NCBI GenBank assembly: GCA_002869335.1
Contig: PKTE01000267.1
Coordinates: forward strand, 1-34,947
Direction of reading: 5' to 3'
Length of the DNA: 34,947 bases
Source: Salinivirgaceae bacterium
GTDB taxonomy: Bacteria; Bacteroidota; Bacteroidia; Bacteroidales; Salinivirgaceae
Shown: piece after piece, positions 7,996 to 17,079 of the stretch
How the letters are laid out: every line of letters begins with the position of its first letter
Position numbering within the stretch: position 1 is the stretch's first letter
The notes under the pieces: model-generated
What the model saw: the letters and a program-made list of their open reading frames with translations, nothing else
Databases searched by the model: none
Told to the model about the DNA's origin: nothing
Position numbers and translations under genes: made by a program

Positions 7996-8907
7996 TTAAA
8001 ATTCTTCATCAGAATCTTCGAAAAATATTTGATTTCCATCATCAGAAAAACCTTCTAAATAACTTGTTTCTTCTGGTCTTGGAAGATATATTGTGAAAAC
8101 TGCTCCTTTTTTTGGTTCGCTATCAACAGTAATACGGCCCTCTAGTGATTCTACATACGATTTGGTAACTGAAAGTCCTAAACCATACCCCTCATTAAGG
8201 GAGTGTATTGTACTTTCTCCCTTTACAAACCGGTCAAATAGCTTTTCCTGTTCGTTTTTATTAATACCTACACCATAGTCCCTTACCATTATTTTCAATT
8301 CATCTTTTTCATTTATTTCTGATGAGATTTCAATCTTTTCGGCGGCATTACTGTATTTAATACTATTATTAAGAAGATTAGACATCATTAGCTTAAGTTT
8401 CTCAGAATCAGTTGGGAATTCATGCGGCGATGTCGATTTGTTTTTTGATTTATATTTAAATTGAATCTTAAGTTCTTTTTGTTGAGCTTTATACCTATAG
8501 CTTTCAATTATGCTCTCGATTAATGAATGAATATTAACTATTGCTAATTCAGGTTGTGCCAATCCTGCTTCAATTTTAGCTGCGGCAAAAATATTTTTAA
8601 GTTGAAAATCTAAGTTGAATGCCTCTGAGTGAATAAGCTGGGCAAGAGGGCGTATTTTTTCATATTCATCAATTTTTAGGCTGGTAATACTTTGGCTTAA
8701 CCCAAGAATTGACGCAAATGGATTAACGATTTCATTGGTGACATTGGATAGAAAATGACTTTTAAGTGATTCACTTTCTTTAAGTTTTTCGTTAACTTTT
8801 CTAAGCTGCTCTGACTTTTGCTTTAGCTCAGTTAATGCCTTTTTGTTCTGTTCAAATCGAATTTTTAATTCGTTGAGCAAGTCTTCGTCGGTTATTCTTT
8901 TGTTCAT
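7996..8907 (-). CDS. Histidine kinase-like protein lacking the phospho-acceptor His
   Basis: 303 residues, no membrane segment. An N-terminal coiled coil (about 5-50) leads into a HisKA-like helix reading FLSNVTNEIVNPFASILG (52-69). The canonical form is SHEIRTP, and here the His position is Asn58 (codon AAT, 8734-8736). The ATPase domain looks intact: N-box LMMSNLLNNSIKYS, DYGVGI, LFDRF and GYGLGLS. The C-terminus is an acidic tail ending EDSDEEF. It may bind ATP and act as an allosteric or scaffolding pseudokinase, or phosphorylate a different residue. It sits between a lone receiver and cheD, 3 bases before the latter. The DNA here is clear; the functional reading is inference. Confidence 0.88.
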   Translation of the reverse strand: MNKRITDEDLLNELKIRFEQNKKALTELKQKSEQLRKVNEKLKESESLKSHFLSNVTNEIVNPFASILGLSQSITSLKIDEYEKIRPLAQLIHSEAFNLDFQLKNIFAAAKIEAGLAQPELAIVNIHSLIESIIESYRYKAQQKELKIQFKYKSKNKSTSPHEFPTDSEKLKLMMSNLLNNSIKYSNAAEKIEISSEINEKDELKIMVRDYGVGINKNEQEKLFDRFVKGESTIHSLNEGYGLGLSVTKSYVESLEGRITVDSEPKKGAVFTIYLPRPEETSYLEGFSDDGNQIFFEDSDEEF

Positions 8908-8951: not shown

Positions 8952-9332
8952 TTAAATGAATCTATTGTCAGTAAGTTCATTTAGTTTTTCAAGCAAATCA
9001 TCTTTATCGAAAGGCTTGGCAAGGGTTGCATGTGCACCCAGGTTACTTGCCATTTCAAGGTATTGTTCACTTCCAGTTGATCCACCTCCACTAATAGCTA
9101 ATATTTTTATTCCCGGGTATTTTTGAATTATTTCAATAATACTTTCTAATCCTTCTTTTTCAGGCATAATGATGTCGGTAATTACAAGGTGTATTGGTTC
9201 TTGTTTTAGTAATTCAAGACCTTGATCGCCATTACCGGCTTCAAATATATTTACTGGGTAATCTATGAGAATATCTTTTATTAATTCTCTTAAAAAAATG
9301 TCGTCGTCAATGATTAAAATATTTGTAAGCAT
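8952..9332 (-). CDS. Single-domain response regulator (CheY-like)
   Basis: 126 residues, one receiver domain and nothing else. Acidic residues D9-D11 (IIDDD), phospho-acceptor D53 in VITDIIMP, Ser80 in LAISGGG as the switch Ser/Thr, and Lys105 in LAKPFDK complete the phosphorylation site. It lies 9 bases after cheR and 44 bases before the His-less kinase-like gene, which suggests it partners with CheA or with that protein. It is clearly distinct from the CheY at 14117-14482. It could be an alternative output regulator or a phosphate sink. Confidence 0.9.
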   Translation of the reverse strand: MLTNILIIDDDIFLRELIKDILIDYPVNIFEAGNGDQGLELLKQEPIHLVITDIIMPEKEGLESIIEIIQKYPGIKILAISGGGSTGSEQYLEMASNLGAHATLAKPFDKDDLLEKLNELTDNRFI

Positions 9333-10190: not shown

Positions 10191-11453
10191 TTAAAAAATA
10201 AGATAAACACATGAAAATTGAACGCGTATGTTTGTTAGTTCTTTCGAATTATTAACTTTTCCTTTGTTTGTATAATCTATTTCTCCATAAGCAGCTGTTG
10301 TGAATTCTGTTTCTGCCCAAAGTTCGATTCTGCTTTTTGACCACTTAATATATGGCGATACTCTATAAAGATAATCAATATCTGCTCCCCGTGCATATAT
10401 TGATTCTGATTTTAACGGATTGTTAGTAAATCCCAGATTTTTACTATAACCAACCAAAACACCAGCCATTAGTACTTTTCCGTATTCTAGGTTGATCCAA
10501 TTAAATAGGTGGTTTGAAGCTGTATAGGTCTCATGTCCAGTTTGGATATTTTTTGATTTTACGGCATAGCCTCCTGTTAACAAATGATCTGTTAGGTTTT
10601 GTCCATACAAAGACTTTGCTTTTATCTTGAGTTTGTTTTTTGTAATTCGCATGAATATTCCTGCTGAATAACTTTCAATGGTGGTTTCCGTTTTGAATAT
10701 TCCCAATGTTCCTGTAGTATAGGTTCTGGGCTGTAATTTTTTATAATCACCAAAAAGACCAATGCTGGTTATGTCTGTTTTCCAAATACCTTGAATATGT
10801 AAATTTGGCATTTTGCTATTTCGCATAAGGTCTAACTGCTTGTCAACTGTTCCATCGCTTGATGGACCAAGATTTTTATAATCGTTTTGATAAAGAGCAG
10901 CGCCAATAAACGTGAAATTATTATTTGGGGTAAAAGTGTATCTTAATTGTGGACTTCTGTTAAAAGGATTGAAAGGTGTGCCTACGTTAATACTTAATGT
11001 AAGAGGAAAGTTTGTAGGAGTAAACATTGGGTGCCAGGTTCTACCCATTAGAATTGAATGTTTTTCAAATATAACATTGATATAGGCATGCCTTAAACGC
11101 AGAGAGTTAGAATTTGATCGAGCAGTAAAATCCGCCTCAATTTTTGCGTTTAGTTGTGCTTTTGTATTGAGAAATTCTTTACCAGTAATATTTAATCCTA
11201 ATCTACTCGATACGCTAGTCATAGTTAATTTACTTATATCATTGATATCTTTTCCTGCCGAATCATAAAATGTATTGGCTGGATATAACAAAAACATTCC
11301 GTCAACAGCTTCAATGCTTTGTCTTGTATCGTAAAAAGCATCTGCTCTTATGAAACCGTATAAATTATTCTTCCATTTTTCATTTTCTTGGCCTGTTGCT
11401 GAAATTTGAATTAGTAATAAAAGTACAAAAATGAATAGAGCATTAGTTTTCAT
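10191..11453 (-). CDS. Outer-membrane beta-barrel porin (DcaP-like) embedded in the che operon
   Basis: 420 residues with a signal peptide (about 1-21, ending SATGQ). The mature part begins YGFIRADAFYDTRQ and alternates hydrophobic and polar residues throughout (LRLRHAYINVIF, LMGRTWHPMFTP), ending in VQFSCVYLIF with a terminal aromatic. This is typical of a beta-barrel porin; the opening resembles DcaP-type porins, which carry small anionic solutes, but the substrate is not determinable here. It sits between cheW and cheR on the same strand, 99 bases after cheW and 3 before cheR, so it is an unusual guest in a chemotaxis unit. A hairpin between cheW and this gene (11466-11532) may lower its expression. 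Confidence 0.8.
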   Translation of the reverse strand: MKTNALFIFVLLLLIQISATGQENEKWKNNLYGFIRADAFYDTRQSIEAVDGMFLLYPANTFYDSAGKDINDISKLTMTSVSSRLGLNITGKEFLNTKAQLNAKIEADFTARSNSNSLRLRHAYINVIFEKHSILMGRTWHPMFTPTNFPLTLSINVGTPFNPFNRSPQLRYTFTPNNNFTFIGAALYQNDYKNLGPSSDGTVDKQLDLMRNSKMPNLHIQGIWKTDITSIGLFGDYKKLQPRTYTTGTLGIFKTETTIESYSAGIFMRITKNKLKIKAKSLYGQNLTDHLLTGGYAVKSKNIQTGHETYTASNHLFNWINLEYGKVLMAGVLVGYSKNLGFTNNPLKSESIYARGADIDYLYRVSPYIKWSKSRIELWAETEFTTAAYGEIDYTNKGKVNNSKELTNIRVQFSCVYLIF

Positions 11454-11552: not shown

Positions 11553-12077
11553 TTATTTTTCTTCTTCAGTAGCTACATTTGCTTTAGTAGTAGTTTCTTC
11601 AACAAGAACAAGTTCATCTTTAGTGAATATTAAGTCAAGATTAAGCAGCATAATAAAGCTTTCGTCTTTTTTAAACATTCCACGAATAAATTCAGCTTTA
11701 TATTTTGTTCCAATGGTAGGTGATGGTTCAATTTGATTATCTTCTAACTCAAGTACCTCACTTACCGCATCAACTAAGATTCCGAGTTTTACTTCCTCTT
11801 TTTCTATGTTGATGTTTAAAACAATAATACAGGTATCTACAGTAGGTTCTATAGGAGACATGCCAAATTTAATTCGCATATCAATTACTGGTAATACCTG
11901 GCCTCTCAGGTTAATAACTCCACTCATATATTCAGGTGCATGTGGAACCTTCGTAATGGGTTTTAACTCAAGAATGTTAACTACGTTATTTGCAGAGGCG
12001 GCAAACACTTCTTTTCCCAATTTGAATGATAGGAATGTTTCCATTGTGCTAGTTTGTTTTTTTTGATTTTCGTCCAT
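11553..12077 (-). CDS. cheW: Chemotaxis coupling protein CheW
   Basis: 174 residues. A single CheW domain (about 10-150) begins with METFLSFKLGKEVFAAS and has the conserved core MSGVINLRGQVLPVIDMR (about residues 55-72) and a VDAVSEVLEL segment. CheW bridges receptors to CheA in signalling arrays. The C-terminal extension of about 20 residues is rich in Thr, Val and Glu. The start is 3 bases after the cheA stop, preceded by a good Shine-Dalgarno sequence that overlaps the cheA 3' end. Confidence 0.95.
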   Translation of the reverse strand: MDENQKKQTSTMETFLSFKLGKEVFAASANNVVNILELKPITKVPHAPEYMSGVINLRGQVLPVIDMRIKFGMSPIEPTVDTCIIVLNINIEKEEVKLGILVDAVSEVLELEDNQIEPSPTIGTKYKAEFIRGMFKKDESFIMLLNLDLIFTKDELVLVEETTTKANVATEEEK

Positions 12078-12080
12078 ATT

Positions 12081-14117
12081 TTATCCTCCTATATTATCTT
12101 TTGTTGCAAATTCATTAATTATTCTGTTTGGATCTATTACAAGGGCTACTGTTCCATCACCTAAAATTGTAGCACCAGAGATAATATCTACATCGCTGAA
12201 CATTCTGCCTAAAGGTTTAAGCACAGCCTGATATTCCCCAATTATTTCGTCAACTGTCAAACCCATGAAAGAATCCTGGTACTCAACATTGACAATTCGT
12301 TCAATTTTTGGTGGTTCTCCTTCAATTTTTAATACATCTCTTAAGTAGATGAATGGAACTCTCTGTTCATCAGCTAAGAACAGGTTGTTTATAGTTTCTT
12401 CTATTTCCTGATGTGTAAATTCATATATTTTTTGAACTGCTGATAACGGAATTACAAATTTTGTATCGGCAATTCTTACAAGCAATCCATCAATAATTGA
12501 TAATGTAAGTGGAAGTTTAATGGTTACAGTTGTGCCAATTCCAAGTTCACTTGAAATTTCTACCTCTCCACGCAATTCTGCAATTTTTTGCTTAACCACA
12601 TCCATTCCAACTCCTCGGCCGGAGAGTTTAGTTACTTGCTTTGCAGTACTAAAGCCAGATGTGAATACAAGATCGTAAATTTCATTTTCTGTTAGCTCTG
12701 TATCAGCACTAATGATTTCTTTCTCAATTGCCTTTTTGCGAATAGCTTCGGGATCTAGACCTTTTCCATCATCAATAATTTGAATGTAAACGAAGGTACC
12801 AGAATAGAAAGAGTTCATTGTAATGGAACCTTTAGGAGCTTTACCTTTTTTGATACGTTCCTCTTTCGAATTTTCAATTCCATGATCGAGACTGTTTCTG
12901 ATAATATGCATTACAGGGTCAACTAACATCTCGATTATGTTTTTATCAAGCTCGGTTTCAGTTCCTTTTGTAATAAAGTCAACCTCTTTACCTAAATCAT
13001 TTGATAATTCACGAACAAGTCTTTGAAAGCGAGTTACCATGTTAGCAATAGGAATAAGGCGAATACTGAAAACATCATCTCTCAATCTACGTGAGATTTT
13101 CTCAATTTCTTCAGCAATTGGATTTAAACCTTCATAAGTGTTCTCTTTGGCATAAAGGGTAAGCTGAGCTTGTATTGTAACCAGTTCACTAACCCAGTTG
13201 ATAAGGTTATCCAGCTTATCTGAGCTTACTCGGATACTGGAAATGCTGTGATCAATTTTTTTAATTGAGTCGCTGGCAGCTTCTTTCTTTTCTTTTTCCT
13301 GAAATACACCTTCAAGGTCAATGATAAGCTCTTGAATTTCAGCCGGTTTTATTTCTGGTTTTTGCTTAAGAGAATCCTTGAGGATGTTTTTAATTGCACT
13401 ATCTCCAAGTAAATTATATTCTGATATTTTGTGAGTTTCAATTTTTGCTTCGTCATCAACAAAAATAAATACATCTATAATTGAGTTGATACCTGCATTT
13501 GTACTAAGAATAATATTCCAACTAGTATAGGTTTTAGTAGGATCAAGTTTATCAAAGTCAGGAATATTGTTGAGGATTGGAGCTATTAAAATTGTTCCCA
13601 GTTCAGCTAGGTCTTCTAGAAGGAAAAGTGGATTAGTTCCATTTTTCATTATATCCTCATTGGGGACAAATCTTATAAAATAAGTTTTTGTTTTTCCTTC
13701 AACCGGCTCATCATGTAATGATGTATGCTCTGGAGCTTGCTTTTCATTGAGCGCGTTTTCTATTCTTTCAATAAATTTATTGTTATTGACTTCAAGGGTT
13801 GTTTCATTTTCGGGTGTTTCGTTTAATAGGCTGCGTAAATGATCAACGGCTTCAAAAGTCAGGTCCAGAATATCCTTGGAAACTTTAAGTTCTTTGTTTC
13901 TAACCCGATCATAAATGTTTTCAAGAATATGAGTGAACTTATCAATTTTCTCGAACCCAAACATGGCGCTGCCTCCTTTAAGGGAGTGCATAACCCTGAA
14001 AATAGATTCAATGGTAGCCATATCATCCTGATTCTGGTCTAGTTGCACAAGGGCCTGTTCCAGCTCGTTAATCTGTTCCGTAGCTTCTTCTACGAATTTC
14101 TGTTTAAATGCTTCCAT
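12081..14117 (-). CDS. cheA: Chemotaxis histidine kinase CheA
   Basis: 678 residues with all five CheA regions. P1 has the phospho-acceptor His44 in RVMHSLKGGSAMFGF. A P2-like regulator-binding domain is at about 145-235. P3 dimerisation helices begin near SSIRVSSDKLDNLINWVSEL (about 293-312). The P4 ATPase has the N-box HIIRNSLDHGIE (404-415), DDGKGLD (449-455) and SGRGVGMDVV (499-508). P5, the CheW-like domain, runs from about 540 to the end. It autophosphorylates on His44 and passes phosphate to CheY and CheB. The ATG overlaps the cheY stop by one base (TAATG), so the two are translationally coupled; cheW follows after 3 bases. Confidence 0.97.
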   Translation of the reverse strand: MEAFKQKFVEEATEQINELEQALVQLDQNQDDMATIESIFRVMHSLKGGSAMFGFEKIDKFTHILENIYDRVRNKELKVSKDILDLTFEAVDHLRSLLNETPENETTLEVNNNKFIERIENALNEKQAPEHTSLHDEPVEGKTKTYFIRFVPNEDIMKNGTNPLFLLEDLAELGTILIAPILNNIPDFDKLDPTKTYTSWNIILSTNAGINSIIDVFIFVDDEAKIETHKISEYNLLGDSAIKNILKDSLKQKPEIKPAEIQELIIDLEGVFQEKEKKEAASDSIKKIDHSISSIRVSSDKLDNLINWVSELVTIQAQLTLYAKENTYEGLNPIAEEIEKISRRLRDDVFSIRLIPIANMVTRFQRLVRELSNDLGKEVDFITKGTETELDKNIIEMLVDPVMHIIRNSLDHGIENSKEERIKKGKAPKGSITMNSFYSGTFVYIQIIDDGKGLDPEAIRKKAIEKEIISADTELTENEIYDLVFTSGFSTAKQVTKLSGRGVGMDVVKQKIAELRGEVEISSELGIGTTVTIKLPLTLSIIDGLLVRIADTKFVIPLSAVQKIYEFTHQEIEETINNLFLADEQRVPFIYLRDVLKIEGEPPKIERIVNVEYQDSFMGLTVDEIIGEYQAVLKPLGRMFSDVDIISGATILGDGTVALVIDPNRIINEFATKDNIGG
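12085..12090 (-). promoter_or_regulatory. Strong Shine-Dalgarno sequence for cheW
   Basis: AGGAGG on the minus strand, 7 bases before the cheW ATG, lies inside the last Gly-Gly codons of cheA. Shine-Dalgarno sequences are uncommon in Bacteroidota, so this may be chance from GGA GGA codons, but the spacing is ideal. Confidence 0.45.
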
Positions 14118-14482
14118 TATCTTACAACTTTATTAATTGCAGCCAATAATTTCTCAGGCACAAAAGGTTTCACTATCCAACCAGTAGCTCCGGCATCTTT
14201 AGCTTCTTTCTTTTTAGCGGTCTGCGATTCAGTAGTCAGAAACAAGATGGGAATAAATTTGTATGCTTCTAATTTTCTGACTTCTCTAATTAGCTCAATA
14301 CCATTCTTATTGGGCATGTGAAGGTCGGTTATAATCAAATCGTAAGGTTTACCATCGAGGTATGTAAGTGCGTCGTCTCCGTCAACGGCTTTTTGGACTT
14401 CATGTCCGGCATTTTCAAGTGTAAAACTTACTACTTCGCGTATGCTTTCTGAGTCATCGACAATGAGTATTTTCTTTCCCAT
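14117..14482 (-). CDS. cheY: Chemotaxis response regulator CheY
   Basis: 121 residues, one receiver domain. The acidic pair is D9/D10, phospho-acceptor D53 is in IITDLHMPNKNG, the switch threonines are T83/T84 in LFLTTES, and K105 is in IVKPF. An aromatic (W102) is near the position of the E. coli CheY switch Tyr106. It is immediately upstream of and coupled to cheA, so it is the most likely diffusible output of this pathway. With no flagellar genes here, its target is unknown and may be gliding machinery or another effector. Confidence 0.93.
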   Translation of the reverse strand: MGKKILIVDDSESIREVVSFTLENAGHEVQKAVDGDDALTYLDGKPYDLIITDLHMPNKNGIELIREVRKLEAYKFIPILFLTTESQTAKKKEAKDAGATGWIVKPFVPEKLLAAINKVVR

Positions 14483-14494
14483 TTTTGGTCGTTT

Positions 14495-14806
14495 TTATGT
14501 TGTTGCTATTTGTATTTCGTTTATTGTTTCTAAAATTACGCTTTTTTTAGTAGCATCCAATGGTGCTTTTAACGTGATTTTTTGATTTTCTTCAAGTTTA
14601 GACTTTTTTAAGCTAATTAACATTTGTATAAATGCTAAGTCTGGTTCTGTGTCTTTTGGTAGCTTGAAAATTATATTTTCTCTGTCAAATTTAGTTGACT
14701 TAAGCTTGTTGAAAATATCTCTAATGTACTGGACAGTAGTTTGCTGATTGATTGTTACTGTCAAGTCTTTTTTTGTCCGTTTTATAGTTATTGCTTGTTT
14801 AGTCAT
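14495..14806 (-). CDS. STAS-domain-like protein
   Basis: 103 residues. The alternating strand-helix pattern (DLTVTINQQTTVQYIRDIF, IIFKLPKDTEPDLAFIQML, QKITLKAPLDATKKSVILET) fits a STAS fold of the SpoIIAA/MlaB type. The usual phosphorylated Ser in the DSSG loop is absent: the loop reads DTEPDLAF, so regulation by phosphorylation as in SpoIIAA is unlikely. Small STAS proteins occur in some che operons beside cheY and cheA. It is 12 bases upstream of cheY and 11 bases after the CheZ-like gene. Fold assignment is by pattern and moderately secure; function is unknown. Confidence 0.65.
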   Translation of the reverse strand: MTKQAITIKRTKKDLTVTINQQTTVQYIRDIFNKLKSTKFDRENIIFKLPKDTEPDLAFIQMLISLKKSKLEENQKITLKAPLDATKKSVILETINEIQIATT

Positions 14807-14817
14807 GCTACTATCTT

Positions 14818-16554
14818 TTAAAACAATTCCAGGTTATCATCATCTTCTTCCTCGGCATCATTGCTAGTGTGTTCATGAATATCTCTTTGCGACTGCATTG
14901 TATATGCAGCTTTCATTGAGGTCAAAAGGTCATTTTGTATTTCTCCTTCTTCTGAAATAGGGAGTATTTTCTTGTATACGCTATTCAATTGATTAATGAT
15001 TTCTTCCACCTGATGCTCATAAAAATCATAATACTTGATGTTCCCCAAAGTGTTTTTTAGTTCACTGTCAAATGTTTTATATGATTTGCAATTGTGCTTG
15101 ATTTTATCATTAATTTGATTGAATTCTTCAAATAAAGGATGGAGATCATTGGTTTCTATAGCGTTGTTTTCTAGTATGCTAAGATGCTTATCAATATCTA
15201 TAATCAGCTGGATTAAGTGGTTATTCTTATGTGAATTAATTATTTTACCAATATTACTTCGAGATTCAATAATATCATTTTGTAATGAAATTAATTTGTT
15301 TGCAATTGTTTTGATATCTGATTCGTCAACTAAATGCTCATTAATTTTATTAATTATAGTGCTAATATCGGTCTCTATTTGTTCAAGTTTTTTGTAATGT
15401 TGATCGTGCAGTTTTATAGATTCTTGAAGAGTTTTATTACTATCAAGTAATTCGGCGATGCTTTTTGAGAAATCGAATATTTTTTTATTTACTGCTTCTG
15501 TTGTTTTTCCAAGCGAATCAGTTGTGAAATTACTGTCTTCTAATTTGAATATACTGTAGGATAGGTTATTCACATCTTCCATAGTGTTTGAAGTATCCAG
15601 TAATTTTTTCGATATATTTTCGATGGCTCCTTGATATTCTTTGTTGGTCAATATAAGCTGGCCTGCTTGAATTTCAGTAATTCCGGGAATTTGCTTGATG
15701 TATTTTAGCCCTTGTTGGATTATATTTTCTTGCTTTTCAAGTGTATTCAACTCCTCAAGAATATTTTTGTGAGTATCTTGAATATGCTCTATTTTTTGTC
15801 TTATTATATCGTGGTATTGAAGGTTAGTAATGATTTGGTTAAGATTTTGAAATCCTTCCTGGTTTTTTTGCTCAACTTGCGACTTTATGCTTTTTGAGTT
15901 TCTAATTCCTTTTTCAATGAAAGAAATTTGCTTGTTTAGTAGGTCAATGTCTTCATACAGATCCATTTCAATTAGACGGCGTGCAGATGTTGCTTTATCA
16001 ATGGCATTGCTGTAGTTATTTTTGAGGCTATCAACATCTTTTGCAATGATAGGTATTTCAACCTGTATTTGCTCAATTTTAGCTGTTAAGTCTTCAATCA
16101 GTTTTTTTGTTTCAATGTGAGCTTTTTTACCTATGAGTCCTTGATTTAACTTTAGATTTGTTAATAAAAACTTTAGAGTAGAAATGTTTTGTTTAAAATT
16201 TAATATTGGTATAAAGATATGTTTGAAATCGTGATTTAATCTGCTGGCTTGAGTTGTGTATTCCGATATGTTGTGCTTTGATAATTTTACTGATGTTTTT
16301 AATGCATCATTAGCATTCCTGAGTTTTTGTAATGCCTTATTATCTTTTAATGACTCAACTCGTTCTATTAATTCGGCAGTGCTTCTTCCTATTTCATGTG
16401 TAGTTTTATGATGATCTTTCATTATTTTATTTAATGCAGAAAAATCATCGTTACTAACATGTGTTAGCTCTAAAACTTTTTGATCAATCGATGAAAAGCT
16501 AGTGACAATCTCATTTATAAGTTGTTGTATTTCTTTAGAACTGATTTTTTTCAT
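14818..16554 (-). CDS. Large coiled-coil protein with duplicated CheZ-like motif (candidate CheY-P phosphatase)
   Basis: 578 residues, almost entirely helical, no membrane segment, no methyl-accepting signalling hairpin. At 244-257 it reads NLQYHDIIRQKIEH. The D249xxxQ253 spacing equals the catalytic Asp/Gln pair of CheZ (D143/Q147 in DLTGQ). A second copy at 505-518 reads NIKYYDFYEHQVEE, aligning D510 but placing His514 where the Gln should be. The two motifs are 261 residues apart, so the protein looks like a tandem duplication with one active and one altered unit. The C-terminus is a flexible acidic tail ending EEEDDDNLELF, resembling CheZ's CheY-docking tail (DDLLDSLGF). It is the first gene of the che unit. 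A receptor-like or scaffold role is the alternative. Confidence 0.6.
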   Translation of the reverse strand: MKKISSKEIQQLINEIVTSFSSIDQKVLELTHVSNDDFSALNKIMKDHHKTTHEIGRSTAELIERVESLKDNKALQKLRNANDALKTSVKLSKHNISEYTTQASRLNHDFKHIFIPILNFKQNISTLKFLLTNLKLNQGLIGKKAHIETKKLIEDLTAKIEQIQVEIPIIAKDVDSLKNNYSNAIDKATSARRLIEMDLYEDIDLLNKQISFIEKGIRNSKSIKSQVEQKNQEGFQNLNQIITNLQYHDIIRQKIEHIQDTHKNILEELNTLEKQENIIQQGLKYIKQIPGITEIQAGQLILTNKEYQGAIENISKKLLDTSNTMEDVNNLSYSIFKLEDSNFTTDSLGKTTEAVNKKIFDFSKSIAELLDSNKTLQESIKLHDQHYKKLEQIETDISTIINKINEHLVDESDIKTIANKLISLQNDIIESRSNIGKIINSHKNNHLIQLIIDIDKHLSILENNAIETNDLHPLFEEFNQINDKIKHNCKSYKTFDSELKNTLGNIKYYDFYEHQVEEIINQLNSVYKKILPISEEGEIQNDLLTSMKAAYTMQSQRDIHEHTSNDAEEEDDDNLELF

Positions 16555-16692: not shown

Positions 16693-17079
16693 ATGGATTA
16701 CAAGATTCTAATAGTTGATGACATTGTTATAAATAGAATTCTCCTGGCTGAATTAATTAAAAAGTTGGGTTATAAATATGTACAGGCAGCAAATGGTAAG
16801 GAAGCAATTGAAAAGGTTGAAATGGATCAAATTGATTTAATATTAATGGATATTGAAATGCCCGTTATGAATGGTATTGAAACCACTAAATACATTAGAG
16901 AAAAATTGACTCTTCCTAAATCTAAAATGCCAATTGTAGCTTTAACTGCACATAACCCAGATGATTTTTTTGATACTTTTGAAAAAGCGGGTTTTGATGA
17001 TTTAATTACAAAACCGTATTTGCTTGATAAAATTAGTAAGACTGTGGCTAAGGCACTTGGAACAGATCATGATGCATGA
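16693..17079 (+). CDS. Single-domain response regulator
   Basis: 128 residues, one receiver domain. The site comprises D9/D10 (IVDD), phospho-acceptor D53 in LILMDIEMPVMNG, T85 in VALTAH and K107 in ITKPY. The MDIEMPVMNG motif resembles receivers of hybrid kinases rather than CheY, so its donor may be such a kinase, for example that at 26539-28887, by inference. It is transcribed divergently from the che operon across a 138-base gap and stands alone, with lnt following after its own promoter. Stop is TGA. Confidence 0.9.
   Translation: MDYKILIVDDIVINRILLAELIKKLGYKYVQAANGKEAIEKVEMDQIDLILMDIEMPVMNGIETTKYIREKLTLPKSKMPIVALTAHNPDDFFDTFEKAGFDDLITKPYLLDKISKTVAKALGTDHDA

Follow-up and report, generated by a model that had tools for sequence, protein, structure and literature searches.

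A predicted CheZ-like phosphatase, apparently on a doubled chemoreceptor-type hairpin, in the chemosensory loci of Bacteroidales

In catalysis by CheZ of E. coli, a glutamine positions the water and an aspartate contacts the lysine of the receiver. CheZ acts as a homodimer whose hairpins form a four-helix bundle. CheC, CheX, and FliY have a different fold and an ExxN motif. In CheZ, an AXXF(Y)Q motif lies ahead of the DXXXQ motif (PMC7750401). CheT from S. meliloti is, according to a secondary account, also a DXXXQ phosphatase (PMC12654446, citing Agbekudzi et al. 2024). As described there, its sequence has no significant homology to chemotaxis proteins already known; it binds CheR, and of two CheYs it acts on one.

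We analyzed a stretch of 34,947 nucleotides from a bacterium of the Salinivirgaceae (the window). On the minus strand, positions 14818 to 16554 hold an open reading frame of 578 amino acids with an ATG start; the plus strand at these coordinates has many stops. The protein (X578) is soluble and all-helical, with no membrane anchor. Searching Pfam, NCBIfam, and (with a profile) the PDB gave coiled-coil noise only. We believe, with a probability of roughly 75%, that X578 is a CheZ-like CheY-P phosphatase and the signal-termination enzyme of a non-flagellar chemosensory system, because D249 and Q253 are invariant, this pair is in the register of the CheZ family (PF04344), the gene adjoins cheY, and no other phosphatase was found.

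X578 lies beside cheY (14117 to 14482, minus strand), and in 18 of the 20 loci that we fetched, it precedes cheY on the same strand. In the other two, it is head-to-head with cheY (L050) or no cheY is near (L056). This CheY is a lone receiver (Response_reg, 99 bits) and, given the adjacency, the most likely substrate; inspection of its sequence shows that the phospho-acceptor Asp is retained, as are the Thr and the Lys. In most of the 20 loci, cheY is followed by cheA, cheW, cheR, a histidine kinase, cheD, and cheB. In the window, cheA is at 12081 to 14117 and cheW is at 11553 to 12077 (both on the minus strand, with domain matches). A reading of the window from its sequence alone (the sequence-only reading) had listed cheA, cheW, cheB, cheR, and cheD along with three lone receivers, and the open reading frames and domain matches bear this out. 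The second receiver is divergent, is on the plus strand (16693 to 17079), occurs in many orthologous loci, and is a possible alternative substrate; the third is at 8952 to 9332 (minus strand) in the list of open reading frames. Two other genes were seen within the che operon. A porin-like outer-membrane protein is encoded at 10191 to 11453, in the gap between cheW and cheR, and also in L044, L045, L059, and L062. A soluble HisKA-type histidine kinase (7996 to 8907) lies between cheD and a lone receiver (or cheR) and is found in most orthologous che operons.

Between X578 and cheY is a divergent STAS-like gene (14495 to 14806, minus strand; 103 amino acids), and nearly all orthologous loci have an open reading frame there. 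Of six orthologous copies tested, four pass the STAS cut-off and two are sub-threshold. The copy in the window has no Pfam match and seems to have diverged beyond detection by Pfam; its position is reminiscent of CheS of rhizobia.

The sequence-only reading had also stated that the locus has no CheC, CheX, FliY, or standard CheZ, and this held up beyond the window. A profile search detected no CheZ in the window's own genome, CheC (PF04509) is in 0 of 24 genomes, and CheX (PF13690) is in 1 of 24; X578 matches neither. The same genome has a second cheY-cheA-cheW-MCP cluster (L112, G000:C106); the part of it that was read contains nothing like X578.

The putative active-site helix is residues 244-258 (NLQYHDIIRQKIEHI; 15781 to 15825, minus strand). 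The motif NLQYHDIIRQKIEH, with D249 and Q253, is present exactly as the sequence-only reading gave it. The D-xxx-Q string proves nothing by itself because about 2.5 occurrences are expected by chance (from shuffles of the same composition) and X578 has one; it is the conservation that carries weight. Across 34 non-redundant orthologues, Q246, D249, I250, I251, Q253, and H257 are invariant, in a protein that has few invariant columns overall. (Y508, Y509, Y551, T552, and F578 are also invariant.) The invariance of D249 and Q253 rules against a chance motif, and we rejected that explanation. Judging from the alignment, selection strongly constrains the first site. The AXXF(Y)Q motif of CheZ is missing from this family: a Tyr or Phe precedes D-xxx-Q in 34 of 34 orthologues, Gln is at position -1 in just 11 of 34, and Ala is at position -5 in none.

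Are D249 and Q253 related to the catalytic pair of CheZ? X578 has no match to PF04344 and none is listed for its orthologues: the best fragment of an orthologue scores 16.1 bits, while the cut-off is 30.7. Comparing whole profiles of the X578 family and beta/gamma CheZ with hhalign gave no signal. More local comparisons gave weak matches. When we scanned active-site fragments of about 75 amino acids against PF04344, the orthologue L030 had E = 0.011 (16.1 bits), and the relatives L065, L077, and L078 had E = 0.025, 0.0035, and 0.0043. The other six fragments, including the window's own, had no match. In all four matching fragments, the Asp falls on position 129 of PF04344, which is also the position of D143 of E. 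coli CheZ. Singly, these matches are weak, and we would not trust the E-values apart from the register and the context; what convinces us is that all four share one register. Also, a profile built from 15 X578-type sequences (A1) found L069, a 224-amino-acid protein encoded beside cheY in another Bacteroidota genome. L069 is a genuine CheZ according to Pfam (31.7 bits against PF04344, cut-off 30.7). An HMM for the motif region (residues 205-290) gave L069 22.9 bits, versus at most 11.4 bits for 400 shuffled sequences, and the signal is on the DxxxQ helix. E. coli CheZ scored at the level of the shuffles with this HMM.

The sequence-only reading had called the D/Q pair CheZ-like and had proposed a profile search against PF04344. 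The likeness stands, in that the pair is in register with D143 and Q147 of CheZ and is invariant, but X578 itself has no match, and only fragments of an orthologue and of relatives match, weakly. These comparisons suggest that X578 works like CheZ without being a member of PF04344, as it fails the family's cut-off. A CheZ-like enzyme outside of PF04344 would not be unheard of, because CheT, as far as it is described in the account cited above, is a precedent (PMC12654446).

The relatives of X578 suggest where its scaffold comes from. Four distant full-length relatives from flagellated Bacteroidota (L064, L065, L066, and L077) match the MCP signaling domain (MCPsignal), in a degenerate but recognizable form, with 43-57 bits, which is above the cut-off, and three of the four do so in two stretches. 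Both units of the distant relatives have receptor-tip-like sequence, and each of the two halves of X578 aligns with these proteins (E = 1.8e-25 and 1.1e-15). They keep the D/Q pair, the YTMxSERxIH-type motif, and the -ELF end. Four other relatives have a single hairpin (L068, L070, L078, and L079): they match MCPsignal with 79-84 bits, then have QFQDVxRQ, and also end in -ELF. Scores for such coiled coils should be read with caution, as reversed L078 and L079 still score 15-17 bits with the full A1 profile. Another example is WP_232389440.1 from Methylobacterium currus (L115:2978-4261, on a plasmid), which is annotated as a methyl-accepting chemotaxis protein; it has a CheZ-like QFQDVVRQQ helix and an -MIELF end and is encoded directly after a response regulator. 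(In Methylosinus OB3b, a relative with the same annotation, H63, is beside another response regulator.) Like the true CheZ L069, the MCP relatives with the CheZ motif are beside cheY: L068, L070, and WP_232389440.1 adjoin it. The distant tandem relatives lie beside cheY-cheA. Neither X578 nor, among the matches listed, its Bacteroidales orthologues match MCPsignal (PF00015).

Structure predictions were of limited help. AlphaFold gave models of low confidence, with a pLDDT of 64.4 for the whole of X578 and 52.7 for the N-terminal half. The models are all-helical, with hairpin turns at residues 140-145 (unit 1; 16120 to 16137, minus strand) and 407-412 (unit 2; 15319 to 15336, minus strand). By profile alignment, the predicted turn of unit 1 corresponds to the receptor-tip-like region of L065 and L064; the predicted turn of unit 2 is between helices 345-407 and 412-442. 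Searching with the low-confidence models, using VIA-align and Foldseek, returned generic helical proteins, with no CheZ among the matches listed. Models of this quality are too weak to settle the fold, the oligomeric state, or the exposure of D249 and Q253 on a four-helix bundle. The distance from tip to Asp is about 107 residues in X578 (with the turn taken from the model) and 108-109 in L065 and L068.

Because there are both tandem and single-hairpin relatives that match MCPsignal and have the DxxxQ helix and the -ELF end, X578 seems to be a chemoreceptor-type hairpin in duplicate, equipped with a CheZ-type helix. Given these receptor-like relatives, we rejected an independent fusion of two CheZs. 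The relatives also raise the question of whether X578 might be a soluble pseudo-chemoreceptor, that is, a protein that descends from receptors and has a structural or adaptor role in the signaling array, its D/Q helix binding CheA, CheW, or CheY without catalysis. The MCPsignal scores of the distant relatives, the tip-like sequence in both of their units, and a C-terminal tail like those of receptors would all fit this idea. But the Bacteroidales family lost the receptor-tip consensus while D249 and Q253 stayed invariant, and the gene occupies the position of a CheY phosphatase in a cluster that otherwise has none. We consider the adaptor role unlikely, and we favor a phosphatase on a receptor-type scaffold.

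More broadly, there may be a cross-phylum class of phosphatases that are built on MCP hairpins, are encoded beside cheY, and mostly carry the annotation of receptors; these hairpins would either have gained the CheZ helix or have been its source. Among gliding Bacteroidales, the doubled form would be a soluble enzyme that shuts off chemosensory signaling to a motor other than the flagellum, and a hairpin of this kind may be the ancestor of CheZ. This is a tentative scenario, and we would bet against it at modest odds.

The sequence-only reading had viewed X578 as a tandem, and the internal duplication is real: hhalign aligned the N-terminal and C-terminal halves over 142 columns (E = 1.4e-5), with D249 opposite D510, and the score (44.2) exceeded the best of 32 controls (29.3, from 30 block-shuffled and 2 reversed sequences). 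The second motif, NIKYYDFYEHQVEE, with D510 and H514, is present 261 residues after the first, as had been reported. It lies in the counterpart of the active-site helix (residues 505-519; 14998 to 15042, minus strand), which is in register with unit 1 and has an invariant YY but no conserved DxxxQ. With turns taken from the AlphaFold model, the first motif is about 107 residues from its turn and the second is about 101. The sequence-only reading went further and proposed an asymmetric, intramolecular pair of CheZs, whose altered second site tunes the activity or discriminates among the three receivers. The duplication and the register of D249 with D510 are what this model would predict. However, position 510 varies among the 34 orthologues (D in 29, E in 4, K in 1), position 514 is His in just 3 of 34 and is mostly Lys, the second motif is absent from the distant tandem relatives, and we found nothing to support a choice among receivers. 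So we rejected a conserved second catalytic site, the "altered active site" did not survive, and we think the asymmetric pair is very improbable. Unit 2 probably has a structural or docking role.

Near the C-terminus is a conserved motif of the YTMxSERxIH type (residues 551-560; 14875 to 14904, minus strand), with Y551 and T552 in 34 of 34 orthologues and H560 in 33 of 34, which is also found in distant relatives. It is followed by an acidic tail (residues 569-578; 14821 to 14850, minus strand) that ends in [ILV]-E-[LF]-F: E576 is in 33 of 34 orthologues, and Leu or Phe at 577 and F578 are in all 34. In X578 this tail ends in NLELF, as first read. It had been likened to the CheY-binding tail of CheZ, and the acidity and the invariant Phe agree with that, but it is also like the docking tails of receptors. 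In 8 of 12 MCPs examined from the genus (L117-L128), an acidic linker leads to a [DEK]F[EDQV]xF end, which is an NWETF-like pentapeptide, and this recurs in other carriers. By analogy, the partner of the tail could be CheY, as for CheZ, or CheR or CheB, as for receptor tails. The latter would give a CheT-like link between the termination of the signal and adaptation, and would be compatible with phosphatase activity. The x-[LVI]-E-[LF]-F end of X578 is similar to these receptor ends, and CheT, a DXXXQ phosphatase, is described as binding CheR (PMC12654446). On the other hand, position -2 is polar in receptor tails and is always Leu or Phe in the X578 family, and IELF tails also occur where the neighboring MCP lacks the pentapeptide (L093 and L096). 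Docking to CheR or CheB is possible, but we lean against it.

X578 relatives were found in 14 of 60 related genomes by protein search. With the A1 profile, 58 of 393 genomes in a sample of the Bacteroidales gave matches, as did 14 of 395 genomes from across the phylum, and a scan of genome contigs found one X578 orthologue. Our searches found none in plasmids and confirmed none in viral contigs. Two orthologues are interrupted (G314:C1:1756804-1758514 is in three pieces, and G094:C55:3709-5475 has one TAG) and are possible pseudogenes or assembly errors. In G003, which is from the same family as the window's genome, the che operon is kept (cheY through cheB, with the flanking lnt gene), while the locus (L110, G003:C1:16000-35900) lacks X578 together with the STAS gene and the divergent receiver. 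This is a natural loss. Because G003 keeps the che operon without X578, X578 is dispensable in at least one lineage.

The carriers are chemosensory and not flagellated. Each of 20 carriers has 5-24 MCPs, while 4 of 20 non-carriers have any (P = 1.5e-7, Fisher exact test; genomes were chosen by X578 status and not at random). All 20 carriers lack FlhA and have GldL; all 7 genomes with the distant relatives have FlhA, and none has GldL above the cut-off. Because GldL also serves type 9 secretion, we only infer that the carriers glide.

We propose that X578 is the off-switch of a chemosensory system that does not serve flagella and is probably linked to gliding; catalysis, substrate, docking, oligomeric state, and output are all predicted here from sequence. 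CheY-P would dock on the helix that carries D249 and Q253, which is at the end of unit 1 of the doubled receptor-type hairpin, about 107 residues past the turn. Q253 would enter the acid pocket of the receiver and position the attacking water, as Gln147 of CheZ does, and D249 would contact the conserved Lys. The [ILV]-E-[LF]-F tail may recruit a partner, either CheY or CheR/CheB.

So far, Bacteroidales with full chemosensory clusters have had no recognized CheY-P phosphatase in the profiles that were tested. With a phosphatase that can be tested, the output of che clusters in non-flagellated gliders would become accessible to study. The intermediates that combine MCP and CheZ motifs suggest that some annotated chemoreceptors are phosphatases, and they raise a concrete and testable hypothesis for the origin of CheZ. 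In the literature that we searched (mostly outside of subscription journals), we found no report of an MCP-CheZ hybrid or of CheZ-type proteins from Bacteroidales. As far as those papers show, the doubled receptor-type scaffold, the distribution in Bacteroidales, and the non-flagellar setting are new.

Among known systems, CheC, CheX, and FliY share with X578 only the slot of CheY-P phosphatase in systems that lack CheZ; X578 matches none of them. CheT, which we compared by its published description and not by sequence, shares a DXXXQ motif without clear homology to CheZ, and its cluster includes the STAS protein CheS as well as several CheYs, but CheT is small and alphaproteobacterial. The MCP signaling domain (PF00015) shares the long helical hairpin, but X578 has no match to it and lacks both a membrane anchor and the receptor-tip consensus. 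The single-hairpin proteins (L068, L070, L078, L079, and WP_232389440.1) share the DxxxQ helix, about 108 residues past the receptor tip in L068, and the -IELF tail; they differ in having one hairpin unit, a recognizable MCPsignal domain, and a membrane segment. The distance from the hairpin turn to the catalytic Asp is about 107 residues in X578 and about 42 in E. coli CheZ, whose hairpin tip we take to be near residue 100. X578 also differs from CheZ in its length (578 versus about 214 amino acids), its tandem units, its score below the Pfam cut-off, and its occurrence without flagella. Yet it shares with E. coli CheZ the D-xxx-Q on a long helix, the Phe or Tyr two residues before the Asp, the location beside cheY, and the acidic C-terminal tail ending in Phe.
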